64,000 nt of DNA from Methylacidiphilum kamchatkense Kam1 (GTDB taxonomy: Bacteria > Verrucomicrobiota > Verrucomicrobiia > Methylacidiphilales > Methylacidiphilaceae): the NCBI RefSeq assembly GCF_007475525.1, contig NZ_CP037899.1, positions 1,054,001 through 1,118,000 on the forward strand. Reading direction: 5' to 3'. Position numbers and translations under genes: made by a program. Position 1 is the stretch's first letter, and each line of letters starts with the position of its first letter. Shown here piece by piece: positions 30,827 through 46,592 of the stretch. The notes beneath the pieces are model-generated. The model did not search any database. It was not told the DNA's origin and saw only the letters and a list, made by a program, of their open reading frames with translations.

Positions 30827-31498
30827 TTATCCATTAAAGATTCCATGAATCATAAAATGGAAATCTGAGATTTGTTCCACAGTAAAGGAGAGATTTTTAG
30901 ATTGGATTTCTTGACTTATCTCCTCGATTGTAAAAGAGGCAAGTAGGGAATTAAAAAAGTCTCTTTTTAAAAGAAAGGGAGCATTGCCGACATAGCTTTC
31001 AGTCAGCAGTCTGGCTTTTTCTATTGATTCAGGCCGAATAAGATCTACGAAAAAAATAAAAGCTCCTTTTTTAGCATACTTTTTGATTGCTTGCCATACT
31101 AATGTTAGCCTTGGCAAATGATGTAATAAGCTATTGCTAAGCAGAACATCAAAAGGAGCTGGATAGGACCAGGTTGGAATTACCCCTTCAAAAAGTTGAA
31201 TGGAATGGGAAAGATGATATTCTTCGATTCTTTTTCTCCCAATAGAGAGCATTGAAGGGGAACCATCAACACCGATAATTTTTGCCCTTGGAAATCTTTT
31301 GGCAAAGCGAATGGAAATGTCAGCTGTCCCACAGCCCATATCGAGAACTAAACCTTCATTAAAAGCAGAAAAAATGGCGGCAAATCGCTCGATAACTGCC
31401 TGATGAGCAGTGGAAAAGTCTGCCGAAGCATAGGCTAAAGCTTGATGAGGATCCAGCATTAGTTCAGGCTCAAGCGTTCTTTCCATTGATTTATGCAA
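30827..31498 (-). CDS. Class I SAM-dependent methyltransferase
   Basis: A 223-residue methyltransferase. SAM-binding motif I is VLDMGCGTADISIRFA, the acidic end of strand 2 is KIIGVDGSPSMLSIGR, and the post-II motif is FDVLLSNSLLHHL. It is closest in layout to UbiE/trans-aconitate-type enzymes; the substrate is unknown. It is 45 bases downstream of the globin gene on the same strand and could be the end of that transcript. Confidence 0.82.
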   Translation of the reverse strand: MHKSMERTLEPELMLDPHQALAYASADFSTAHQAVIERFAAIFSAFNEGLVLDMGCGTADISIRFAKRFPRAKIIGVDGSPSMLSIGRKRIEEYHLSHSIQLFEGVIPTWSYPAPFDVLLSNSLLHHLPRLTLVWQAIKKYAKKGAFIFFVDLIRPESIEKARLLTESYVGNAPFLLKRDFFNSLLASFTIEEISQEIQSKNLSFTVEQISDFHFMIHGIFNG

Positions 31499-31543: not shown

Positions 31544-32347
31544 TTAAGGGAAAGTAAGCAAAAGGGTTTTGATTTTTTCTGCTGCCTTTCGAAGCAAAAG
31601 AGTAATCATGCCTTCATAAGACTTAGTGGGATAAAGGATCCCAATGGCCGAATGGGGGCCAGCCATGCAAATGTAAAGTTGTACCTGGCTGCCAGTGATC
31701 TTTGTTTCCAATATATTTCCTGCTCCTGCTAATTCACATAGCCTTTTGGCATGTCCAATAGTGGAACTAACAACGGAAGCAATAATGTTTGAATAGTTTG
31801 AGAAACTGCATCGACTAACTGTAGCTCCCTTATTTGTAGAGATGACGATACCAAGAATATCCGGGTTCGCTGCAAAAAGATCAGATATTATTTGAGAAAG
31901 CTCTTGTTCTAGATACCGTACGAGATATTCGAAAGATTTGCTTTTTTTATGTTCCTCAATCATAACCTGGGCCAGCGTTTCATAAGCCTTTATCCAGGTT
32001 TGTTCCAATTCTTTTGTCCATTCTTTCCCAATAATTTTTCCAAGCGTCCAAATAAGAGTGTGACCAATCAAAGGATAATGTTCCACTTCCACTCCATACT
32101 TCACATGCCGACGGGCTAATTCCTTTGCAGCATCCAAAGCCGTATCGATATCTTGAAGGTTTAAAACTATCCAATTTAAGACATCTATTAGTTTTCTACC
32201 TTGTTTCTCAATATTCTCTCTAAAAAGAGATCGTACATTAGGTTCTACCTCAAAGAGCCTTTTGTAAAAAAGTAGCCCTGCTTCATCAGCCTTATCTATC
32301 ACATAGAGCCAACTTTTTTGGATTAGTTTTATTTGCTCTTGAGTCAT
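31544..32347 (-). CDS. Globin fused to a roadblock/LC7-like domain
   Basis: A 267-residue protein. Residues about 1-135 form a single-domain bacterial globin: B10 Tyr28, E7 Gln49 and proximal His81 (RRHVKYGVEVEHY), the Tyr/Gln distal pair expected for NO or O2 chemistry. Residues about 148-267 (LSQIISDLFAANPDILGIVI ... KAAEKIKTLL) resemble a roadblock/LC7 domain, usually a dimeric partner of small GTPases. The fusion suggests a globin with a signalling or scaffold role. It lies 157 bases after the receptor gene of the nitrate operon on the same strand, so protection from NO made during nitrite reduction is plausible. The globin is certain, the second domain likely. Confidence 0.85.
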   Translation of the reverse strand: MTQEQIKLIQKSWLYVIDKADEAGLLFYKRLFEVEPNVRSLFRENIEKQGRKLIDVLNWIVLNLQDIDTALDAAKELARRHVKYGVEVEHYPLIGHTLIWTLGKIIGKEWTKELEQTWIKAYETLAQVMIEEHKKSKSFEYLVRYLEQELSQIISDLFAANPDILGIVISTNKGATVSRCSFSNYSNIIASVVSSTIGHAKRLCELAGAGNILETKITGSQVQLYICMAGPHSAIGILYPTKSYEGMITLLLRKAAEKIKTLLLTFP

Positions 32348-32504
32348 AAAAAGAAAATTAATTTACAATTTTTGTAAATGAAGCTATATAAAATAAATTT
32401 ATTTTCTTCAAGATGTTCTTTAATGTTCTTTAACTCGTTGAGAAGCTTCATACCAAGGTAGTCCTCGGAAAAAGTAAAAAGAAATTTTTTCTGAAATTAA
32501 GAAT

Positions 32505-34928
32505 CTAAAACAAATAACTTAAGGTTCCCTGAATCCAAAATGGCATTCCTGGAACAATATTAGCGTAATCAAAAATTCTTGCCGCTTGAATTCCTACCCC
32601 AAAAGGTAACCAGTATTTATTATCGGTCGTGTTGAAAAGATAAAGGGAAAATTGCCAGTGGGGTAGGGAGTAAAAAAGCCGTGTTCTAATAATAAATTCA
32701 GGGGGAATGGAATCAGCATAGTTATACCCAAGAAATTGTCTACTCAACCAACTAAGCCCAACCGTAAATCCTAATCCTGAAGAAGAAACATAGTTGATCA
32801 TGCCATCTATAACATTTGTAGGCCAGCCAATAAATGGATAAACGCCAGCAGGGAAAAAAGCATTGTTGTTTAGAGGTAAAGAAAATAGTAGTGCCTCACT
32901 GGTAGAGTAAGTTTGAGTTTCTAAGGGGCCATGACCGACATTTTTCCAGTCTTCAATCCCATATTGGTATGCATAGCCCAGCCGACAGAGCAATGATTGG
33001 TAAGGTTTATAAGAAAAGTCTAGTTCAAAACCACTCACTGTTGTCTTTGTAGGAGTCAGTCCTACATTATCGATCCAAAGGTCTTGAGAAAAAATTGTGC
33101 CATCAATGAACAACCGCTTATTTAGAATGTTTAATTTTATGCCAGATTCATAGAGCTGATCGCATTGATGGAAGGATTGGGAATTAAAAAGAGGAGAGTA
33201 CCCGCCAAGAACTGCTGCATCAGTAGTATATTCGATGATGTATGTAAAATAAATGTTCATCCAATCAAATGGAATGTAACTAGGACTGATTGAAAAGAGG
33301 GGAAGGGATTGGGTTGTTTTGAAATCCTTAAAAAGTATTGGAGGAGTTCCAGGAGGAGTTTGAGCCTGTACAAAGTAGTTGGTATCTCTTAGCCCTAAAG
33401 AAAGGCTCCAAGATTGGTTTAAGCTTATTGTTTGCTGTATAAAAGGAGCTATAGAGAAAAAAAAGCTATTTGTTGATCCTCCAGAACTATTTAAAGGATT
33501 AAAAAAATAGCCATTTGGGGCTCCAGGAATTGGCCAAAGCCCCCCAAATTTTGCATGGGGATTTAGGAGATTCTTTTGGAAAAAAGAAGAAGAAAGCATA
33601 TTCCAGCTAGTAGGAAAGCTTGAAACCATATCCCAACTATTTGCTCCGAAAAAAGAGGTGGCTACATAATCGAGATTTCTTTGGACATGCCATTCAATGC
33701 CACTATCCATCAGATCAGTGAATGAAAAAGCTGAATTAGCTTCTGGAAATTCGATATTGGCAACACACTCCGTTCGGTGCCCAATTTCATAATCTCCCCT
33801 ATTCGAAAGACAATAATAAACAGGTGGCTGCAGGAGTTGTTCCCGGTTATACCACACAAGGGTATTGTCTAAAATCTTTAATCGGTCATTAATTGAAAAT
33901 CTCTGAATCAACTGTAACATTCCCAGCAAAGCCTGAGCCCCGCCTTCAGGATTTTGAAGGAGGATCCTACGGCTGATTGGAAGAAGAGGACCGGCATAGA
34001 AGGAATAGGGAGGGTTATTTAGTTGTCCCACATTGATTAAGGAGGGTGAAAGAGATCCAGAAGAATAGAGACCATTTTCAATTAAGTTTTCCGTTGGCCT
34101 ATTCATCCACATAAAAAGGGGAGTATAGTCATAGGTGCCGAAATCGCCGAGAAAATCGACTCGATAGTTCTCTGAAGAATGAATTCCTACATTAAAATAT
34201 AGGTTTTGTTGATCGTTGTGAACATATTGATAATAATTTCCATTTTCCATACCTTGATAACTGATTCTATAAGCAATATTTGGAAAGATTGGTCCTCCTA
34301 TGTCTATGAGCCACATATATTTTTCGTACATCCCAGTGGTCCATTGAGCTGATCCACGAAAAGAATCGAAATAGGGTTGTTTTGTTAAATAGTTGGTCAC
34401 TCCAGAGCTTGTTTGAGTGGCTCCAAAGATTGCTTGTGCAGGACCTTCGATAAAATCGAACGATTCAATCATGTTCCAATTCATCGGGATTCCTTGGAAG
34501 GCGCCATTTTGGATGTTCATTTCAATGCCATTAATATAGGGAATAGAAGGATAGCCTCTTGAGAAGGGAGCTATCCCTAGTCCGTAGTTTACCGATGAAT
34601 AAGCAGAAGGGATATAAAAGGCCATGCTTAGAGGATCTAAAAAAGGCTGCAATCCCATCCCTAGCGCCTGAATGAGTGTTTTGTTAATTGTAAAAACGGT
34701 GCGAGGAGTATCTAAAATGTCCATTGGTCCGAAACCTTCCGAAGGGGAAATCAAAAAGGAAGTCTTTTCTTTCGGTTCTATTGGTACTTGCCCTTTGACT
34801 TTTATTGGTGGTACGGCTAAAGCATCTCCTGCCACAGCATTGGCTGTGGAACCCACTCCATTAGAAGGATAAAGACAAGTGATTAAAAAAAGGGGAGTCA
34901 GATAAAATACAATCTGCCTCTGGCTCAT
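32505..34928 (-). CDS. TonB-dependent outer-membrane receptor in the nitrate operon
   Basis: An 807-residue receptor with a signal peptide (IVFYLTPLFLITCLYPSNGVG), a plug domain (about 60-200, PRTVFTINKTLIQALG ... GATQTSSGVTNYLTKQPYFD) and a 22-strand-type barrel ending in WIQGTLSYLF. Its start codon overlaps the stop of the nitrate transporter gene (ATGA at 34925-34928), so it is translated with the nitrate genes. I see no clear TonB box. The substrate is unknown: iron or haem for sirohaem enzymes, molybdenum, or an organic nitrogen compound are candidates. A tonB gene lies at 45867-46592. Confidence 0.88.
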   Translation of the reverse strand: MSQRQIVFYLTPLFLITCLYPSNGVGSTANAVAGDALAVPPIKVKGQVPIEPKEKTSFLISPSEGFGPMDILDTPRTVFTINKTLIQALGMGLQPFLDPLSMAFYIPSAYSSVNYGLGIAPFSRGYPSIPYINGIEMNIQNGAFQGIPMNWNMIESFDFIEGPAQAIFGATQTSSGVTNYLTKQPYFDSFRGSAQWTTGMYEKYMWLIDIGGPIFPNIAYRISYQGMENGNYYQYVHNDQQNLYFNVGIHSSENYRVDFLGDFGTYDYTPLFMWMNRPTENLIENGLYSSGSLSPSLINVGQLNNPPYSFYAGPLLPISRRILLQNPEGGAQALLGMLQLIQRFSINDRLKILDNTLVWYNREQLLQPPVYYCLSNRGDYEIGHRTECVANIEFPEANSAFSFTDLMDSGIEWHVQRNLDYVATSFFGANSWDMVSSFPTSWNMLSSSFFQKNLLNPHAKFGGLWPIPGAPNGYFFNPLNSSGGSTNSFFFSIAPFIQQTISLNQSWSLSLGLRDTNYFVQAQTPPGTPPILFKDFKTTQSLPLFSISPSYIPFDWMNIYFTYIIEYTTDAAVLGGYSPLFNSQSFHQCDQLYESGIKLNILNKRLFIDGTIFSQDLWIDNVGLTPTKTTVSGFELDFSYKPYQSLLCRLGYAYQYGIEDWKNVGHGPLETQTYSTSEALLFSLPLNNNAFFPAGVYPFIGWPTNVIDGMINYVSSSGLGFTVGLSWLSRQFLGYNYADSIPPEFIIRTRLFYSLPHWQFSLYLFNTTDNKYWLPFGVGIQAARIFDYANIVPGMPFWIQGTLSYLF

Positions 34929-36235
34929 TTTTTTCTTTTTTCGATCTCCCCTTTCTCTTTGGATTCAAAAGATAATAAAGGGAAGAAAGAGAATTTCTTG
35001 CTTTTATACAGACTTTCCAAAAAAGGATAGGAAGGGAAAGGTCTTTTGCCTTCTGACAGCAAGATGATTGAGATGATTCCGCAAATTAACACACAAAGCG
35101 AAAAGAGTCTGAAACCAAAAGAACATGAACCAAAAGATTCTTTGATTTTTCCCAGAAAAATGGGTAAGAGAAAACCGCCAATACCTCCTGCAGCTCCGAC
35201 AACTCCTGTCGTTAAGCCAATATGGGAGGCAGTTTGCGTGCCCACCAATTGAAATATGGCTCCATTAGCTAGGCCAAGACATCCCATCATAAAAAATATT
35301 GGAGTTAATTCTAGAAGCAGAGGAAAGTAAAAGGAGGGAAGAAAAGCAAAAAAGCTACCTAAGCTAAACAAAAGAAACAATACCTTTATTCCGCCCAATT
35401 TGTCGGCTATGGCTCCACCTAATGGCCTTAAAAGGCTTCCAGAGGCAATAAGCAAGGTTTGAAGTCCACCCGCCTCCACTTTCTCTACTCCATACTCATC
35501 GACAAGAAAGAATCCCAGATAGCTTGAAAAACCTATAAAACCACCAAATGAAAGGCTATACAAAAGGGATAAAAGCCATGTCTTTTTCTGGCAGAGCACT
35601 CGAATGATACTTTCCCCAGTCATTCTTTCATTCTGGAGACGAGGAGCATCTTCAGCAAAGAAAAGCACGAAAAGGAAAACAATGAATAAGAGGAGGAAGA
35701 AAAAGCCGAAAACCGAATGCCACCCGTATCTGTGTGCAATCATAGGACCGAAAAGTGTGCTAAGAAGCGTGCCGCTATTTCCACTTCCAGCCAGTCCTAA
35801 AACAAGTCCTTGGTGTTGCGGCAAAAACCACCTGCTTGCCATTGGAATGGCGACGGCAAAACTTGCTCCAGCAACTCCAAGAAGGATACCGATGAGATAT
35901 ATTTCTTTAAGAGTATGGGCAAATACAAAACCCCAGACGAGGGGGATAACCGAAACTCCCATGGCAATAAGAGCCGTTTTTTTCCCTCCAAAGCCTGATT
36001 CAGCTATTCCCAAGGCAATTCGTAAACCGCTCCCAGATAAAATAGGTAGAGCCACCATAATCCCTTTTTCTAGTGGTGTCAGCTTCAGTTCATCTGCTAT
36101 AAAGGTCCCCACAGCCCCTAGAATCACCCAAATGGCAAAACTGATATCGAAATAGAGAAAAGAAGAACAAAGGGTCAAAAGGCTTTGTTTATTGATAAAG
36201 ATATTAGGAAAGAAGGGCGTTTTCATGAGAGCCAT
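34925..36235 (-). CDS. Nitrate/nitrite MFS transporter (NarK/NrtP type)
   Basis: A 436-residue major facilitator with 12 predicted helices. The N-terminal half shows FAIWVILGAVGTFIADEL and GVAGASFAVAIPMASRWF; the second nitrate-signature-like segment is GVVGAAGGIGGFLLPIFLG. These glycine-rich segments mark the nitrate/nitrite porter family. The start overlaps the nirD stop (TAATG at 36233-36237). It should import nitrate for NasA. Confidence 0.9.
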   Translation of the reverse strand: MALMKTPFFPNIFINKQSLLTLCSSFLYFDISFAIWVILGAVGTFIADELKLTPLEKGIMVALPILSGSGLRIALGIAESGFGGKKTALIAMGVSVIPLVWGFVFAHTLKEIYLIGILLGVAGASFAVAIPMASRWFLPQHQGLVLGLAGSGNSGTLLSTLFGPMIAHRYGWHSVFGFFFLLLFIVFLFVLFFAEDAPRLQNERMTGESIIRVLCQKKTWLLSLLYSLSFGGFIGFSSYLGFFLVDEYGVEKVEAGGLQTLLIASGSLLRPLGGAIADKLGGIKVLFLLFSLGSFFAFLPSFYFPLLLELTPIFFMMGCLGLANGAIFQLVGTQTASHIGLTTGVVGAAGGIGGFLLPIFLGKIKESFGSCSFGFRLFSLCVLICGIISIILLSEGKRPFPSYPFLESLYKSKKFSFFPLLSFESKEKGEIEKRKK

Positions 36236-36594
36236 TACGTTAGGCTAATGGTGTTTGAAGCCATGGGGATTTTTATAAAAATCTGGTGGTTTTTTACAAA
36301 GGTAGGATAAACTTTAATTCGAAACTTTTCAGAGATTGTGCAGTTGCCCGTTTCAAAAGAAAAAGGGTAAGCATGAAGTGGACAAATGAAGATCTTTTCG
36401 TCACAGAGAGCTTCGGCAATTGGCCCTCCTTGATGTGGGCATTTGCCTTCGACGGCCCATATTTTTCCCGAATGGGTTTTAAAGAGGGCAATTTTTATCT
36501 TTCCAATTCGAAAGCATCTACCTATGCCACTGACTAGTTCGTTGATATGACATACTTGATAGACCCTTTCATTATCCAGTATATTGCTATTCAT
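36235..36594 (-). CDS. nirD: Rieske-type nitrite reductase small subunit
   Basis: A 119-residue Rieske [2Fe-2S] protein. Cluster ligands are CPHQGG (Cys, His) and CPLHAYPF (Cys, His), both complete. NirD pairs with NirB in NADH-dependent nitrite reduction to ammonium. It starts 22 bases after nirB and its stop overlaps the next start, confirming one operon. Confidence 0.9.
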   Translation of the reverse strand: MNSNILDNERVYQVCHINELVSGIGRCFRIGKIKIALFKTHSGKIWAVEGKCPHQGGPIAEALCDEKIFICPLHAYPFSFETGNCTISEKFRIKVYPTFVKNHQIFIKIPMASNTISLT

Positions 36595-36616
36595 TATTCG
36601 TTCTCCTTTTAGGATT

Positions 36617-39058
36617 TTAGGAAATGGGATTGGGACAGCTTGTTTCAGAAGTAAATTGATAGGGAAATTCTTCCTGTTGCGCAGCTTTCCAAGGATCCTC
36701 GTAGGCTGCTATTGCCTGTTCTATTTCTCTGTCCAATCTGTTTTTTTCGGCTTCAGGAGCTGAAAGTATTGCAGATCTTATTGCTTCTATTCCCAGTCGT
36801 TCAACAAAACTATAGCTCCTTTCTGCATATTTTGCGTTTTCTCGATAGTATTGAATGAAGCGGCCGATACATAAAAGTGCTTCCTCATGATCCTTAGCGA
36901 TTGTGAGAAGATCTCCAGCTCGAACCCTTGCCCCTGCAGCCCCTCCAATATAAATTTCCCAGCCTGTTCCAATAGCTACAGCCCCAATGTCTTTGACCGT
37001 GGCTTCTGCACAGTTCCTCGAACAACCACTTACCGCAAGTTTAAGCTTTGCTGGAGTTTCTACTCCCTGAAATCTCTTTTCAATTGCTATCCCAAGCTTA
37101 GTAGAATCGCCTACACCAAATCGGCAAAATTCGATTCCTACACAGGTTTTGCAGGTTCTGAAAGCTTTCGTATAGGCATGACCGCAATTCATTCCCAGCT
37201 CTTTCCATACCAAAGGCAGTTGCTCTTTTGTTAGTCCAAGCATGTCTATTCTTTGGCCTCCTGTAATTTTTATCATGGGGATCCTGTATTTTTCGGAGAC
37301 ATCAGCAATTTTTCGTAGTTGCTCAGGAGTGGTGATGCCTCCATAGATTCGGGGTACTACCGAATAGGTCCCATCTTTTTGGATATTTGCATGCACTCGG
37401 TCATTGATGAATCTCGCATCTGGTTCTTCTTTGTATGATTTGCCCCAGATGGTTTTTAAAAGGCTGGCTAAAGCCGGTTTGGAGGCAGCTTCTTCTTTTC
37501 CTCCTGCTAGTTGTTGAAAGACAGCTGAAACACTTCTTAGTTGTCTTTTTTTAATCTCTTCGATCAATTCTCTTTTTCTCAAAGGAATGCAAGGTACATA
37601 ATAATGAATGGAAGGATCATCAGAAATTGACTTTTGAGTTGTACTCTCAAAGAGTCTTTGCACAAGACCCTTGCAACTGCCACATCCAGTTCCAGCTCGA
37701 CTAATGGTCATGACTTCTTTGAGGGTAGAAGGACCTTTTTGAATAGCTTGTAAAATTTCTTTTTTCGTTACTCCATTGCAGTTACATACTTGAAAATCCT
37801 CTGGTTTGTTTTCTATTGTTTCTTCTTTTGTTATGATGGTTCCTTCGGTTAGAAGATCTTTTGGAGCACAGGTTAGGGGGAGGGATTTTTCGTAGAACTG
37901 CAGTGCGTCTAATGCGTGAGATGAAGGTCCAAGGAAAATTCCTCCAACAATCTTCTTTTCATTGATCACGATTTTCCTATAAATTCCTCGGTTTGGTTCG
38001 GCATAGAGCACAATCTCTTCCCCACCTTCTGGTTCAATGCGACCAAAAGAAAGAAGATCGATTCCGGCAACTTTCAATCGAGCAATTGGCAGAGAACCAT
38101 TGTAGCCTTGTGTATGGGCTTTGCCTAAGAGTGATCGTGCGGCGATAGCGGCTTGCTGCCAAGCAGCGGCAACTAAACCGTAGGTTTGGCCATTAAACTC
38201 GATGCATTCGCCTATAGCAAAGATCCCAGGATGAGAAATCGATTCCATACGAGAATTGACAAGAATGCCTTTATTTACAGCGATCCCGGAGTTTTTAGCC
38301 AAAAGACAGTTTGGTTCAATTCCTGTAGCAATAACAACAAGATCTACTAGGGCTTCTTTGTTGTTTTCAAATAAGATGGCCAGGCTATTGCCTTTATTTT
38401 CTATGCCGATCGTTCTTGTTTTTGTCGAGACTTGGATGTTAAGTTTTTCTAACTCCTGTTTTAAAATAGCTCCCGCCATTTCATCGAGCTGCTTTTCCAT
38501 CAAATGGCCCATAAGATGAATAAGACTGACCTGTAGCCCTCTTTTCATTAAACCAAAGGCTGCTTCTATCCCTAGGAGTCCTCCGCCAATGACGATTGCC
38601 TTTTCTGCATCAAAAAGGAGCCTGAGAATATTGTTACAATCGTTGATTTCTCTAAATGTGTATATTCTCTGGGCAAGTTTTCCTGATTGATCGAAAATCC
38701 CAGGCAGTTTAGGGATCGATGGAACACTCCCTGTGGCCAAGAGAAGTTTGTCATATGGAATTTTTTCTTTTTCAGTCCATACTCTTTTGTTGATAGGATC
38801 GATGTGTAAGGCTTCACAACAGGGTCTGACCACAATTCTATGCTCTTGAAACCATTGTAAGCTTTTAAGTTCAATTGCCTGAGGCTCCGTTTCCCCAGCA
38901 AGTACACTGGAGAGCAAAATTCGGTTGTAGCCAACCCTGCTTTCCTTTCCAAGCAGAGTAATCTGATAGTGCTCTATCCCTCCGATTTCGACCAGTTCTT
39001 CCAGGAATCTTATAGCGGCCATTCCGGCACCAATGATGAGGAGTTTTTCTTTTTTCAT
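36617..39058 (-). CDS. nirB: NADH-dependent assimilatory nitrite reductase large subunit
   Basis: An 813-residue sirohaem enzyme that reduces nitrite to ammonium. Domains in order: FAD/NADH oxidoreductase (about 1-400; LLIIGAGMAAIRFLEEL, VIGGGLLGIEAAFGL), a BFD-type [2Fe-2S] domain (about 420-470; CNCNGVTKKE, GTGCGSCKG), then the nitrite/sulfite reductase ferredoxin half and the [4Fe-4S]-sirohaem domain with cysteines in KTCVGIEFCRFG and SGCSRNCAE. Length is normal. Its ATG overlaps the restored nasA stop (TAATG at 39056-39060). Confidence 0.95.
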   Translation of the reverse strand: MKKEKLLIIGAGMAAIRFLEELVEIGGIEHYQITLLGKESRVGYNRILLSSVLAGETEPQAIELKSLQWFQEHRIVVRPCCEALHIDPINKRVWTEKEKIPYDKLLLATGSVPSIPKLPGIFDQSGKLAQRIYTFREINDCNNILRLLFDAEKAIVIGGGLLGIEAAFGLMKRGLQVSLIHLMGHLMEKQLDEMAGAILKQELEKLNIQVSTKTRTIGIENKGNSLAILFENNKEALVDLVVIATGIEPNCLLAKNSGIAVNKGILVNSRMESISHPGIFAIGECIEFNGQTYGLVAAAWQQAAIAARSLLGKAHTQGYNGSLPIARLKVAGIDLLSFGRIEPEGGEEIVLYAEPNRGIYRKIVINEKKIVGGIFLGPSSHALDALQFYEKSLPLTCAPKDLLTEGTIITKEETIENKPEDFQVCNCNGVTKKEILQAIQKGPSTLKEVMTISRAGTGCGSCKGLVQRLFESTTQKSISDDPSIHYYVPCIPLRKRELIEEIKKRQLRSVSAVFQQLAGGKEEAASKPALASLLKTIWGKSYKEEPDARFINDRVHANIQKDGTYSVVPRIYGGITTPEQLRKIADVSEKYRIPMIKITGGQRIDMLGLTKEQLPLVWKELGMNCGHAYTKAFRTCKTCVGIEFCRFGVGDSTKLGIAIEKRFQGVETPAKLKLAVSGCSRNCAEATVKDIGAVAIGTGWEIYIGGAAGARVRAGDLLTIAKDHEEALLCIGRFIQYYRENAKYAERSYSFVERLGIEAIRSAILSAPEAEKNRLDREIEQAIAAYEDPWKAAQQEEFPYQFTSETSCPNPIS

Positions 39059-41198
39059 TATTTTTTTTCCTTTCTTATTGCAGTATGCGTGGTTTGCCCT
39101 GTAGGGGATTGAATCTTAGCTGCACACAGCTTGAATGAAGGCATTTTGGAAAGAGGATCAAAAAGGGATAAAGTCAGCGCATTGGCTTCTGCCTGTGCAT
39201 TGGAATAAAAAGGGATAAAAAGAGTGTCGAGCCGTAGATTAGGAGATAACTTTGCTTTGAAGTATCCTTTCCCCTTTTTGTTTCTACCAAGACATATTGA
39301 CCATCTTTTATTCCAAAATGACGCGCAACGGCTGGGTTTATCTCAACGATTACAGAAGGTTCCTTTTCTTGGAGTTTTTGAATAAGCCGGGTCTGAACCC
39401 CTGTTTGGTAATGATATAAAGTTCTTCCTGTTGTGAGGTAGAAAGGATATTCGCTGTTTGGTTCTTCAGGAGAAGCGATGGGATGAACGGGATGAAATTT
39501 TGCTTTTCCGTTATCTGTTGGGAATCTTTTGGGAAGGAAGATATCTTTTTGACCTTTGCTTAGGAAAGAATGGCATGGCCAATACAGTTCTTCTCCTCTA
39601 GAAAGCCTTTGGTAGGTAATTGCAGAATAATCTGCAGCTGCTCCAGCGGTAGCTCTTCGAAGTTCTTCAAAGATGGCTTGTGGATCTGAAGAAAATCTTA
39701 ATCCAAAGCCAAACTTTTCAGCTAGTAAGTGAATGATTTCAAGGTCTGTTTTAACGTGTTTTGGGGGATCTAAGATTTTTGGTCTGAGCAAGACACGGCC
39801 TTCTAGATTTGTAACTGTACCTGTTTCTTCAGCCCAAATTGCTGTGGGTAAAACAACATCAGCCATCGCTGCCGTTTCGGAAAGGAAAGGATCACATACA
39901 AGGAGAAATTCCAACTGAGGGAAAAGCCGCTTGAGCTTTGAATTATTCGGAGACGATACAATAGGATTGGCTCCAAAAACGAGCATCGCTTTAATACCAT
40001 GCGGCTTTTCAAGGGACTCAAAAATTTCGGTTACACTTTTGTCAGAAGATGGTAGGTCCTTTTCATCGATTTGCCAGAGTCTGGAGATATATTTCCTGTC
40101 GAATAAATCAAGATTGCTTCGAGCGCCTGGCAGTTGATCAGGTTTGAGCCCTAATTCTCTGGCTCCTTGCCCATTGCCTTGACCAGTTAAAGTACCAAAT
40201 CCTGAATTTACCTTTCCTACAATTCCAAGAGCTAGAGAAAGGTTGATAAAGGAAAGGACATTAAAGACCCCTTGAGTTTGCTGTTCACACCCCCTTCCAG
40301 TAAGAATGACAATGTTCTTTTCGGTTCCTAAAAGTTCAGCTACCCTGAATAACTCTCTTTGAGAAATACCCGTCAGAGTTTCGACTTTGGCAGGCCAAAA
40401 AGAAGAAACAGAGTTAAGGATTTTTTCAAAACCATAAGTGTAATTACGAATAAAAAAGTGGTCGATCTTGTTCTTTTGGATCAACAGATAAAGCAAACCA
40501 TTGGCTAGGATTCCATCGGTTCCGGGTTTTATTTGCAGATGCACATCCGCATAGGTAGCTGTTGGGGTAGGCCTTGGATCAATAGCTATGATTTTTTTGT
40601 TCCTTTTTTTCAAGCAGTCAAAATGGGTCCGAATGGGAGGCATGGTTTCCAGTGGGTTTGTTCCAACCAGTAAGAGCAAATCAGTATGGGCAATATAGTC
40701 GATGGGAAAGGGTAGCCCTCTATCTATTCCCAAAGCCATTTCAAGAGCTTTAGATGCCGAAGCCATGCAATATCTTCCGTTGTAATCGATTGCTGAAGTT
40801 TGCAAGACAACACGGGCGAATTTTCCAAGGAGATAAGCTTTTTCATTGGTTAGACTACCGCTCCCATAAACGAATATAGAACTATTTCCCCAATGGGATC
40901 GAATCTGGGAAAGCTTTTCTACTATAAATGAAATAGCCTCTTCCCAATTAGATTCTCTGAAGGCATTATCTTTTTTGTATCGGATGAGTGGATTAAGAAC
41001 TCTTTTAGGATGCCTAATTAAGGCAGTGGCCTGCCATCCTTTAATGCAAATTTCACCTTTATTTGTAGCAAAGTCTCTTGGTTCTACCCTAAACTCATGG
41101 CTATCCTGGACAACCCATATGGCACACTGATAACTACAAAAGGGACAATGCGTTGGATATTTTGTATAGATTCTTTCTTTATTATGCTTTTCTATCAT
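39058..41198 (-). CDS. nasA: Assimilatory nitrate reductase catalytic subunit, one 3' frameshift
   Basis: A cytosolic molybdopterin enzyme that reduces nitrate to nitrite. No signal peptide. The N-terminus has the [4Fe-4S] motif HCPFCSYQCAI with a fourth Cys in GEICIKGW; molybdopterin-binding blocks include GNGQGARELGLKPDQLPGAR and FGANPIVSSPN. The continuous frame stops at 39174 after VLVETKRGKDTSKQ. In the neighbouring frame the expected C-terminus continues GYFKAKLSPNLRLDTLF and FYSNAQAEANALTLSLFDPL, to a TAA at 39060-39058 overlapping the nirB start. One more G in the minus-strand G4 run (plus C4, 39271-39274) restores it, giving about 713 residues. The clean TAATG junction argues that the longer form is native. 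Confidence 0.93.
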
Positions 41199-41608: not shown

Positions 41609-42709
41609 TCAAATAGAAATGGGCAAGGTATTTGTTTTTTGTTGAGCTACTATTTTTTCGGCTTGCTTATAAATTTCGGTATCAAAAAACGATCGGCTTT
41701 TTCTTTCTCCTATCTTTAATAATCCCGAATTTACCATTTCATTAACAATCCACTGTTCCTTTTCTTTTGAGGGGCAATTGGCATTGCCTTGACTAAAGAC
41801 ATGAAATGCCTGTCCTGGAATAAAGATATTTTTTCCCATTCGAAAAGGTCCAATAAGGCTGTGTTGAAGCACTTCAAGAGGCTGAGCAATCCATCTTCCA
41901 TAGTGCAGCATGTCGGCCAAATCCTGCCTGTTATGAGGGCTGTCTGCCCATTGGCAGGCTTCTATAAGACAGCCAACAATCCGTATATGTTCTTCCCTTT
42001 TTCTTTCTTTGTACTTTGCATTTGCAAGCAACACTTTTTCGGGATGTCTAGGAGCTAGGTCAAGACTTGTAGCCACACAAAAACCCGTTTTTTCGAACAG
42101 TGAAACAGAATTCCATGGTTCTCCAACACAAAAGCCATCAATAAACCCTTCTTTGAGGTGAAGAGGCATTTGGGGAGGAGGTAAGGGAACAAAGCGAATA
42201 TCTCTTTGTGGATTTAATCCTATCTTTTGAAGCCATCGGAGAAGGAGAAAATAGTGGCTTGAAAAAGTGGAGGCTACCCCAAAAAGTAGGGGAAAGGTGC
42301 TGGTAGCCTTTATAATCCTTCCATAGTTTTCAAGAGGTTCATTTTCTAAGATCGAGCCATATTTTTTGGAAAGAGTGATTGCATTGCCATTAAGATTCAA
42401 AACGAAGGCCGTTGAACATCGACAGGGAACCGATTTTAAACCATAGTTCAAGACTATGGGCAGACCACAGACGGCTTGAGCAAAATCCAACTCTTCATAG
42501 ACAATCTTCTCCCGGATCGTTGCCCAGCCAGGCTCAGGGCTAAGTTGAACGTCAAAACCCCATTTTTTAAATAATCCCATTTCTAAAGCTACGACCAACG
42601 GAGCACAATCGATCAAAGGAATGTAACCAATGGTTATTTTAGATCCTATTCTCAATGTCCTAACTCCTCGGGTTGTGTCCCTTTGTCCATACTTTGTCTC
42701 TTTTATCAA
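41609..42709 (-). CDS. Cytosolic NrtA/CmpA-like nitrate-binding protein (NasS-like)
   Basis: A 366-residue periplasmic-binding-protein fold of the NrtA/CmpA/SsuA group: KITIGYIPLIDCAPLVVALE, GLFKKWGFDVQLSPEPGWA, GLPIVLNYG, and GFIDGFCVGEPWNS. It has no signal peptide or lipobox, so it should stay in the cytosol. No ABC permease or ATPase is nearby; nitrate entry is by an MFS protein. This matches NasS, the cytosolic nitrate/nitrite sensor that sequesters the antiterminator NasT, but no nasT gene is in the window. It lies between the nas operon and a divergent LysR gene. Confidence 0.85.
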   Translation of the reverse strand: MIKETKYGQRDTTRGVRTLRIGSKITIGYIPLIDCAPLVVALEMGLFKKWGFDVQLSPEPGWATIREKIVYEELDFAQAVCGLPIVLNYGLKSVPCRCSTAFVLNLNGNAITLSKKYGSILENEPLENYGRIIKATSTFPLLFGVASTFSSHYFLLLRWLQKIGLNPQRDIRFVPLPPPQMPLHLKEGFIDGFCVGEPWNSVSLFEKTGFCVATSLDLAPRHPEKVLLANAKYKERKREEHIRIVGCLIEACQWADSPHNRQDLADMLHYGRWIAQPLEVLQHSLIGPFRMGKNIFIPGQAFHVFSQGNANCPSKEKEQWIVNEMVNSGLLKIGERKSRSFFDTEIYKQAEKIVAQQKTNTLPISI

Positions 42710-42721
42710 GCAGTTAGAATG

Positions 42722-42741
42722 CCAAATGGGGATCCAAATGG
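42722..42741. promoter_or_regulatory. CCAAATGG direct repeat in the NasS-like/LysR divergent promoter
   Basis: CCAAATGG occurs at 42722-42729 and again at 42734-42741, spaced 12 bases start to start, within the 79 bases between the divergent NasS-like and LysR genes. A repeat about one helical turn apart in a LysR divergent promoter could be an operator. Seen in sequence; function inferred. Confidence 0.35.
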
Positions 42742-42788
42742 ATATTGAATAACATGTATAAATAGAATAGGATTTATAAAAAAATAGT

Positions 42789-43700
42789 ATGGCTTATCCC
42801 ATCGATAGTCGAGCTCTTTACATTTTTGTCAATACTGCTGAATCCGAAAGCTTTTCACAGGCCGCAAAATCATTGCATCTGAGTCAACCGGCTGTGAGTC
42901 GAACAATCCAATCGTTAGAAGAAGAATTAGGATGTCGACTTTTTGATAGGGAAGGAAAGAATCCTTCGCTTACGGCTATTGGGAAAGAATTTTTAGTCTT
43001 AGCAAAAGAAATTTTGGCAGGAATGGAAAAAGCCAGAATTGATATAGAAAATCTTAAAAGGGAAGGACCCAAAAAAATTGTTTTTTCAACAAGCTCGCTT
43101 AGTTGTCAATATTTCATTCCACAGCTTTACAGGGAATTCCAAGAAAGTTTTCCAGACTGCCTTTTCTCAATCATTCCAGCCAATTCTCCTTTGGCGATTG
43201 AATTGGTCGAACAGAAAAAAGTGGATTTTGCCCTTACCATTAAGCCAATAGTTCCCTTTGAAGGATTGGCTATGCTAGAACTTTTCCAGGATGAAGTCCT
43301 TTTTCTAGTTAGCTCTTTTCATCCGCTTACTCGAAAAAAGGACATTTCTAAAAAGGAGATAGAAACTGCTCATTATTTGATAAAAAATAAGAACGATACT
43401 ACTTTTCATATTGTAGAGAAGGCATTTGCCGAACAATCTTTGTATCCAAAAAATTTCATCGAATTAGCTGAAACCGGCTCCATTAAGGAGATGGTCAAAA
43501 TGGGTCTTGGGATTGGTATTTTACCAGGTTGGATTGCCAAAGAAGAACTAAAAAAAGGCAAGCTTCTCTCTCTTTCTTTAATTGCCAGACCTATTATCAG
43601 AAAATGGGTCTTCGTATATAAAATGGGAAGAAAACTCAGCCTTTTGGAAACCACTTTTTTGGAGCTCTGTAAAACAATTCTTCCTAAAAAAGTAAGCTGA
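42789..43700 (+). CDS. LysR-family transcriptional regulator, likely of nitrate assimilation
   Basis: A 303-residue LysR regulator. The winged HTH is at residues about 8-66 (FVNTAESESFSQAAKSLHLS, QPAVSRTIQSLEEELG, LFDREGK), followed by a co-inducer domain with SCQYFIPQLYREFQESFP and MGLGIGILPGWIAKEEL. Divergent orientation to the NasS-like gene, upstream of the nas operon, suggests a nitrogen-responsive activator comparable to NtcB. It starts ATG and its effector is unknown. Confidence 0.86.
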   Translation: MAYPIDSRALYIFVNTAESESFSQAAKSLHLSQPAVSRTIQSLEEELGCRLFDREGKNPSLTAIGKEFLVLAKEILAGMEKARIDIENLKREGPKKIVFSTSSLSCQYFIPQLYREFQESFPDCLFSIIPANSPLAIELVEQKKVDFALTIKPIVPFEGLAMLELFQDEVLFLVSSFHPLTRKKDISKKEIETAHYLIKNKNDTTFHIVEKAFAEQSLYPKNFIELAETGSIKEMVKMGLGIGILPGWIAKEELKKGKLLSLSLIARPIIRKWVFVYKMGRKLSLLETTFLELCKTILPKKVS

Positions 43701-43794: not shown

Positions 43795-44637
43795 ATGGAT
43801 GTTGCTAATGAAAAAAACGAGCGGGCATTTGACTTTATTCCTCTTAATGAAAGAGAACAGAAGCCTAGAAAAGTTGGCCTCACTGAAATCCGTGGACCTT
43901 ATTACACCCCTGTTGGTAAGCACTATCTAGAAGATTTATTCGACACAATGGGAAACTATATTGATATTCTTAAGTTTGCTGGGGGCTCTTTTACATTGAT
44001 GTCTAAAAGAGCCCTGGAAGACATCATAAACCTTTGCCATAGTCACAATGTTTTGGTATCCACGGGAGGATTCATCGAAAGAGTATTGACGATGGGGTCA
44101 GAATTGATTGACAACTATGTGAATGAGTGCAAATCGATCGGTTTTGATATTATTGAGATTTCAGCTGGCTTTGTTACCGTTCCATTTGATGATTTGCTTC
44201 GCCTCGTTGAAAAAGTGCAAAAAGTGGGCTTAAAAGTGAAACCGGAGGTAGGAGTACAGTTTGGAGCCGGAGGGGCTACTAGAGCTGAAGAACTAGAAGC
44301 AGAAGGAATAAAAAGTACAAAATGGGCAATCAAACAGGCAAAAAGGTTTCTAGAGGCTGGGGCCTATCTAATAATGGTAGAATCAGAAGGGATCACTGAA
44401 AATGTTGCTGTGTGGAAAAGGGAGATTATAGCAGAGTTTATTGATCAACTAGGATTGGAAACACTAATGTTCGAAGCAGCTGATCCAGAGGTATTTTCTT
44501 GGTATATTAAGGACTATGGCCCGGAGGTGAATCTTTTTGTCGATCACAGTCAGATTGTTCAATTAGAATGTTTACGGTCAGGGATTTGGGGAACGAAAAG
44601 CACTTGGGGTCGAGTAGTGACATATAAAAAGTCATAA
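43795..44637 (+). CDS. Phosphosulfolactate synthase family (ComA/HSA32-like)
   Basis: A 280-residue TIM-barrel of the ComA family. Motifs: GLTEIRGPYYTPVG, YIDILKFAGGSFTLM, STGGFIERV, IEISAGFVTVPFDDL, KPEVGVQFGAGG, VESEGITENV, and FVDHSQIVQLECLRSG. ComA adds sulfite to phosphoenolpyruvate in coenzyme M synthesis; plant HSA32 is a paralogue for heat tolerance without known activity. No comB, comC, comD or comE gene is visible, so coenzyme M synthesis is doubtful. GGAGCC precedes ATG 43795. Confidence 0.88.
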   Translation: MDVANEKNERAFDFIPLNEREQKPRKVGLTEIRGPYYTPVGKHYLEDLFDTMGNYIDILKFAGGSFTLMSKRALEDIINLCHSHNVLVSTGGFIERVLTMGSELIDNYVNECKSIGFDIIEISAGFVTVPFDDLLRLVEKVQKVGLKVKPEVGVQFGAGGATRAEELEAEGIKSTKWAIKQAKRFLEAGAYLIMVESEGITENVAVWKREIIAEFIDQLGLETLMFEAADPEVFSWYIKDYGPEVNLFVDHSQIVQLECLRSGIWGTKSTWGRVVTYKKS

Positions 44638-45866: not shown

Positions 45867-46592
45867 TTACCGAGGAATATAACTTGTCTGATAGTATTTT
45901 TCATTGGATAGGGGAGGAGAATCATCCAGTTCGAAGGTTACCGCTTCTTTAATGACCCGATTAACATGCAGTGGAAATTTCCAATGGGAATCTATCCAAT
46001 CTTTTGCTGTTTTATCAAGAAGAGGATATCCAGAAGAGCGAACGATTTGAGAGTTGACGATTTTTCCTTTCCGCACATCGAGCAGAATAACGACCGTCCC
46101 TTCCATATGCCGAAGACGAGCTTCATATGGATAAGGGGGTGGGGAAAGGAAAGAAGTGGATAAAGAATATTGAATATACTCTTTGTTAGGTTTGTTAGGC
46201 GTATGGAAAGCGCATCTTTTTGTTTGAGATTGAGGAATAGCTCGCGGACTATTCAGGAGGTGTTTCGGTCCTTCCGGATTAGCTGGCAACGGAGAAGGAA
46301 TAGGGGGAAGAGGAGGTTTTGGGGCTTCAGCAATAGGGAGAGAAGAAGAAGAATGCTCTGAACTGGAAACAAGGTCAATAAAAGAAGAAGAATCTGTTTG
46401 AGAAAAATAATTACTTTTTTCTATTTCAGAACTATTCTTGTTTGGAAGAGAAATCAGTGCTAGCAATCCATGAACGCTGGCAGCTAAAAACATACAAAGT
46501 AAATAGGCCAGTTTTTCTTTTGAAAAATAACCAAAAGCTTTAGCAATCATTTCTTTTTCTTTTTTTACTTGTAAAAGCAAAAAGCATGCCAA
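45867..46592 (-). CDS. tonB: TonB energy-transducing protein
   Basis: A 241-residue protein with one N-terminal helix (about 30-48, LAYLLCMFLAASVHGLLAL), a Ser-rich then Pro-rich periplasmic region (PKPPLPPIPSPLPANP), and a C-terminal TonB domain from about 140: PPPYPYEARLRHMEGTVVIL, SQIVRSSGYPLLDKTA, HWKFPLHV. It links the ExbBD motor to outer-membrane receptors; exbB and exbD are not in the window. It may serve the receptor at 32505-34928. Met15 (46550) is an alternative start. Confidence 0.85.
   Translation of the reverse strand: MACFLLLQVKKEKEMIAKAFGYFSKEKLAYLLCMFLAASVHGLLALISLPNKNSSEIEKSNYFSQTDSSSFIDLVSSSEHSSSSLPIAEAPKPPLPPIPSPLPANPEGPKHLLNSPRAIPQSQTKRCAFHTPNKPNKEYIQYSLSTSFLSPPPYPYEARLRHMEGTVVILLDVRKGKIVNSQIVRSSGYPLLDKTAKDWIDSHWKFPLHVNRVIKEAVTFELDDSPPLSNEKYYQTSYIPR

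Follow-up and report, generated by a model that had tools for sequence, protein, structure and literature searches.

The nitrate locus of Methylacidiphilum kamchatkense Kam1 raises the question of why a gene for a TonB-dependent outer-membrane receptor (TBDT) should stand last in an assimilatory nitrate operon, and whether the globin gene following it belongs to the same unit. In the initial annotation, nasA, nirB, nirD, narK and the receptor gene were described as joined by stop/start overlaps and, together with the globin, as a possible integrated nitrate-use module. The supply of metals for nitrate assimilation usually counts as a general function of the cell; with a receptor coupled to narK, it would become a dedicated and testable step in methanotrophs living in acid, where metal chemistry is unusual.

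Gene content and junctions of the nitrate locus

All coordinates are positions in the window, i.e., the whole 64,000-nt stretch of Kam1 DNA that was analysed (NZ_CP037899.1, 1,054,001 to 1,118,000). The gene order identified here is nasS-like, nasA, nirB, nirD, narK, TBDT, globin-Roadblock and methyltransferase, whereby every open reading frame was found where it had initially been placed and the identities of NasA, NirB, NirD, the NarK-family MFS transporter and the globin with its Roadblock domain were matched by Pfam/NCBIfam models:

42789..43700 (+): LysR-type regulator, divergent from the nasS-like gene (Pfam HTH_1 and LysR_substrate)
41609..42709 (-): NasS-like nitrate-sensor protein of the NMT1_2 family (PF13379, E 5e-64)
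39174..41198 (-): nasA, assimilatory nitrate reductase, 674 aa as deposited (NasC model NF047855, 679 bits, below the cut-off of 1100)
36617..39058 (-): nirB, nitrite reductase large subunit (TIGR02374, 742 bits, above cut-off)
36235..36594 (-): nirD, nitrite reductase small subunit (Rieske_2 and NirD-type matches)
34925..36235 (-): narK-type nitrate/nitrite MFS transporter (TIGR00886, E 1e-67, below cut-off)
32505..34928 (-): TonB-dependent outer-membrane receptor (TBDT), 807 aa, assigned by family profile; ATGA overlap with the narK stop
32362..32411 (-): conserved promoter-like block 5' of the globin gene (five-species column conservation)
31544..32347 (-): globin-Roadblock/LC7 protein, HGbRL ortholog (PDB 3wfw, E 7e-69, residues 1-134; Pfam Globin and Robl_LC7)
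30827..31498 (-): SAM-dependent methyltransferase, directly 3' of the globin gene (ORF list and Pfam; adjacency in five of five genomes)

Judged by protein families and neighbourhood comparison, the grouping of nasA, nirB, nirD and narK provides the gene content of a Nas assimilatory nitrate operon. Adjoining the LysR gene, a ComA-like phosphosulfolactate synthase is encoded (43795-44637), which is present in all five Methylacidiphilum genomes compared, namely Kam1, G014, strain Yel (G020), G024 and M. infernorum V4 (G036).

Alignment of nasA with its four counterparts in these relatives revealed a one-base deletion in Kam1 (within 39262..39287, minus strand; GTAGAAACAAAAAGGGGAAAGGATAC), which cuts off the C terminus, so that nasA is not intact in the deposited Kam1 sequence: the final ~34 residues are off-frame and the stop lies at 39174, 115 bases ahead of nirB. 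The TAATG at 39056-39060, previously read as the nasA/nirB join, therefore fails for the deposited ORF and contains a stop only in the nasA frame of the relatives, where nasA runs into the nirB start via TAATG (G014 and Yel) or ATGA (V4). The Kam1 frameshift is likely a sequence error, because Kam1 is said to grow on nitrate and because the authors of its PacBio-only genome suspect a frameshift in hyhL to be an error (PMC6688271). The TAATG proposed for nirD/narK (36233-36237) is present in the Kam1 sequence and was found only there among the five genomes, the relatives coupling nirD and narK otherwise. Likewise present is the ATGA of the narK/TBDT junction (34925-34928), which is kept in all five genomes, and the gap between the TBDT and globin genes does amount to the 157 bases initially counted.

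The receptor gene, its relatives and its proposed role

Taken alone, the 807-aa Kam1 protein yielded no Pfam or NCBIfam match, and the single-protein PDB search gave no or weak matches; an AlphaFold2 model calculated from two sequences, the second being the strain Yel fragment, reached a pLDDT of 24.5 and was discarded. A family profile was built from an alignment of 24 relatives, and its search against the PDB identified the colicin I receptor and, as ferric-siderophore receptors, FetA (3qlb, E 1e-19) and FptA. Among the aligned relatives the Plug domain PF07715 was matched by 21 of 24 and PF00593, used as a check for the 22-strand beta-barrel, by one of 24. At family level, the earlier assignment to the TonB-dependent class was hence borne out, and the protein is, as judged from its sequence family, a TBDT. 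By the family profile it has the Plug domain in common with FetA, the enantio-pyochelin receptor, and with FptA, whereby the relationship is distant and the best match spans the plug region. Close to the N terminus, PPIKVKG resembles a TonB box by eye, and TonB genes are located in the window (45867-46592) and elsewhere in the Kam1 genome.

The order nasS-nasA-nirB-nirD-narK-TBDT-globin-methyltransferase was identified in five of five Methylacidiphilum genomes. As the entire neighbourhood is colinear across the genus, in a block larger than the nas genes, gene order by itself says little about function. For the pair of Kam1 and its near relative G014, dN/dS amounts to 0.16 for the TBDT, 0.18 for narK, 0.14 for nirB and 0.06 for the globin; the TBDT is thus under purifying selection and as constrained as narK and nirB are. 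Together with the overlap kept in all five genomes, this value is stronger evidence than gene order and documents more than chance. In two of the five genomes the TBDT frame is interrupted, by an in-frame TGA in G024 and by a one-base insertion in strain Yel; the remaining frame is open in both copies, and sequencing error is a possible cause. The disrupted frames weaken the idea of a fully integrated module and count against a strict need for the receptor.

Outside the genus, 44 further nitrate loci of Verrucomicrobiota (20 nirB-anchored, 20 nasS-anchored and four from the same family) yielded no TBDT, a count which rests on profile search and motif scan jointly, as the profile misses some distant TBDTs and the motif scan, recovering about 8 of 11 known paralogs, was used only alongside it; the motif hits obtained looked like chance. 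As had been assumed, a receptor of this class is accordingly not standard in nitrate operons, and since it is missing from these 44 loci, the TBDT at the nas locus is, on sequence grounds, a Methylacidiphilum-level addition among the sampled genomes. In Methylacidimicrobium (L096, L097) the order is LysR/nasS-nasA-nirB-nirD-globin-narK, without a TBDT, and a literature search found no published report of a nitrate operon containing a TBDT. In one Methylacidimicrobium genome (G028), ORFs recognized by eye as nifE- and nifN-like (L096:91-2709) lie at a distance of about 4 kb from the nas operon.

The TBDT family comprises about 12 copies in the 2.2 Mb Kam1 genome, among which the nas TBDT forms a long-stemmed clade of its own in the tree; support for its position among the paralogs is weak. 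One paralog lies within the NiFe-hydrogenase cluster, after two subunits and ahead of hypB, which fits receptors placed with metalloenzymes, and other paralogs adjoin unrelated housekeeping genes. Only the hydrogenase context was telling: no ligand clue came from the contexts near the nas-TBDT branch, from the nearest sister-genus paralogs or from the xoxF regions, and no metal-handling gene lies next to the nas TBDT. Beside the NiFe-hydrogenase genes, a single ORF (L119:5663-8500; Kam1 C1:812662-815496) was observed to encode a HypC-like domain followed by a TBDT; it is intact only in Kam1, and the fragmentation of this one hydrogenase-linked paralog in G014 and Yel counts against the metal-chelate reading set out below.

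The reading preferred here, considered to have about an even chance of being correct, is that a nitrate-inducible nas operon gained a coupled metal-chelate TBDT in Methylacidiphilum, with HGbRL and the methyltransferase forming a separate sensing unit. One member of the expanded TBDT family would thereby have become the last gene of the nasA-nirB-nirD-narK operon and, as the overlap suggests, would be translationally coupled to narK and made together with the nitrate enzymes during nitrate use. Nitrate itself would pass the outer membrane passively, entry via porins and NarK being established for these families; NarK would carry nitrate/nitrite across the inner membrane, and NasA and NirBD would reduce nitrate to ammonium. 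The TonB-driven TBDT would probably import a metal chelate required by NasA/NirB, as suggested by the receptor family, the metal need of both enzymes and the sister paralog in the hydrogenase cluster. Iron (for sirohaem and Fe-S clusters) would be the most likely ligand metal, followed by molybdenum for NasA; since the low pH of these habitats keeps ferric iron in solution, an iron-siderophore role is weakened. The narrower proposal that the TBDT is nitrate-induced and dedicated to one metal, i.e., a molybdenum or iron chelate, for NasA/NirB is rather doubtful; if true, an acidophile would tune its metal import to its nitrogen source.

Against the preferred reading, it has to be weighed whether a duplicated TBDT landed behind narK by positional accident, using the nas promoter for some general uptake that has nothing to do with nitrate and decaying in some species. 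Such an origin is in line with about 12 paralogs in 2.2 Mb, with other paralogs standing beside unrelated housekeeping genes, with the interruption of two of the five nas copies and with the nas loci of sister genera being devoid of a TBDT, whereas the narK/TBDT overlap in all five genomes, the dN/dS of 0.16 and the distinct long-stem clade formed by the nas orthologs argue against it; it is held as a tentative, lesser possibility. The position within a nitrogen operon would also suit import of a nitrogen compound (an organic nitrogen source or a nitrogen-bearing chelate) as part of the nitrogen supply, and TBDTs with non-siderophore substrates are known. However, neither a hydrolase, an amidase nor an inner-membrane importer is present among the neighbouring genes read, NarK is a nitrate/nitrite carrier and metal-chelate receptors are the closest matches of the family profile, which leaves this reading quite improbable.

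The globin-Roadblock gene and its probable transcription unit

The Kam1 protein combines a globin domain with a C-terminal Roadblock/LC7 domain and thus possesses the HGbRL architecture, and its alignment with PDB 3wfw revealed Lys52 to be kept. For M. infernorum HGbRL, the original report describes a site-swapped dimer with Lys-His haem (hexacoordination), a putative sensor function and an operon shared with a methyltransferase (PMC4476040; PDB 3wfw/3wfx). A methyltransferase gene adjoins the globin gene in all five Methylacidiphilum genomes. The gap between TBDT and globin genes measures 151-160 bases across the five species, and the promoter-like block (32362..32411) lies in its later half, reading TTGAAG ... 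TATATA/TATAGC, then ACAAAAATTGTAAA; here, roughly 35 of 50 columns are invariant in the five species, as compared to about 15 of 100 columns before. A strict sigma-70 scan did not call the block, and the consensus promoter/terminator scan, being not above shuffled expectation, was not used as evidence. Because the gap holds this conserved block and because an operon with the methyltransferase has been published, HGbRL and the methyltransferase probably form a transcription unit separate from the nas operon, and the inclusion of the globin in the coupled nas transcript is not supported. An inverted repeat (TTTACAAAAATTGTAAA, 32362-32378) lies 5' of the globin gene in Kam1, and this palindrome is not kept in V4 and G024.

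The globin had further been regarded as a possible remover of NO formed from nitrite; a role as a plain scavenger disagrees with the putative sensor function and the Lys-His haem given for its M. infernorum counterpart, and sensing is the better supported role. The HGbRL unit would accordingly sense a gas (NO or O2) and signal rather than add a further step to the pathway. What persists of the integrated nitrate-use module is the TBDT as part of the nas set, which has the same place and the ATGA in all five genomes, while the globin, with its own promoter-like block, is not supported as a member of one transcript and the broken TBDT frames in two of five genomes speak against full integration.

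Globins go repeatedly with nitrate genes in Verrucomicrobiota: HGbI-like globins were identified between nirD and narK in Methylacidimicrobium nas clusters, and also inside those of three other verrucomicrobia. The well-studied HGbI is identical in V4 to the solved protein over 132 residues; in M. infernorum, its gene (L094:15104-15499) is encoded on the opposite strand between nasS and nasA. These placements, together with the Bradyrhizobium japonicum narK-bjgb-flp-nasC operon, whose single-domain globin Bjgb was tested and removes NO (PMC4724949), favour the idea of a shared transcript of the Kam1 globin and the nas genes, with the globin detoxifying NO formed from nitrite. Yet HGbRL is fused to Roadblock and has no reductase partner gene alongside, its gene stands behind a gap of 151-160 bases that holds the conserved promoter-like block, and the M. 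infernorum counterpart is described as a sensor with Lys-His hexacoordination, by which co-transcribed detoxification becomes unlikely. In G014, a second, stop-bearing globin-Roadblock copy was observed about 11 kb from the first (L102:6106-6921). According to PMC4476040, HGbRL is unique to Methylacidiphilum, against which stands a 49% homolog in a sister genus (G008).

Comparison with known nitrate systems

Concerning regulation, the NasS-like protein shows no signal peptide by eye and has no ABC partners alongside; its counterpart in M. fumariolicum SolV was annotated as nitrate-binding protein tauA (PMC5623727). Divergent nasS-like/LysR pairs (41609-43700 in Kam1; L096-L098, L185, L186, L224-L243) were observed in all five Methylacidiphilum genomes and three Methylacidimicrobium loci, and the same pairing was found in 20 of 20 NasS-anchored loci of other Verrucomicrobiota. 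ANTAR (NasT-type) proteins were found in none of 13 family genomes and in one of 289 phylum genomes, the single match indicating that the search works. With a LysR gene beside nasS in place of the ANTAR partner of the NasS-NasT system, these findings suggest that a NasS-LysR nitrate switch probably replaces NasS-NasT in Verrucomicrobiota.

The nasA/nirBD/transporter clusters of SolV and M. infernorum V4 encode the same enzymes as that of Kam1, and RNA-seq of SolV documented that nitrate raises the expression of the nitrate/nitrite transporter and assimilatory reductase genes 9- to 45-fold (PMC5623727). Conservation of the nas cluster was reported for three strains (PMC6688271). TonB is nowhere mentioned in the main texts of both reports, in which the receptor is thus not described, and PMC5623727 makes no mention of a globin. 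M. infernorum HGbRL resembles the Kam1 ortholog in its globin and Roadblock domains, Lys52 and the neighbouring methyltransferase gene and differs from it in sequence; the available portion of PMC4476040 draws no link to the nitrate operon. The B. japonicum narK-bjgb-flp-nasC operon is alike in grouping assimilatory nitrate reductase, NarK and a haemoglobin and in its NasS-type sensor (PMC4724949). As described, it contains no TBDT, unlike the Kam1 locus, its regulator is NasS-NasT and its nitrite reductase NirA is encoded at another locus. Moreover, its single-domain globin works with the flavoprotein Flp, whereas the Kam1 globin is fused to Roadblock and the ORF list of the Kam1 nas cluster holds no flavoprotein gene, i.e., by sequence the pair of globin and flavoprotein reductase appears to be lacking there. 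Not described in the literature searched, the arrangement at the Kam1 locus is real and represents a variant, at the level of the genus, of an operon already known.
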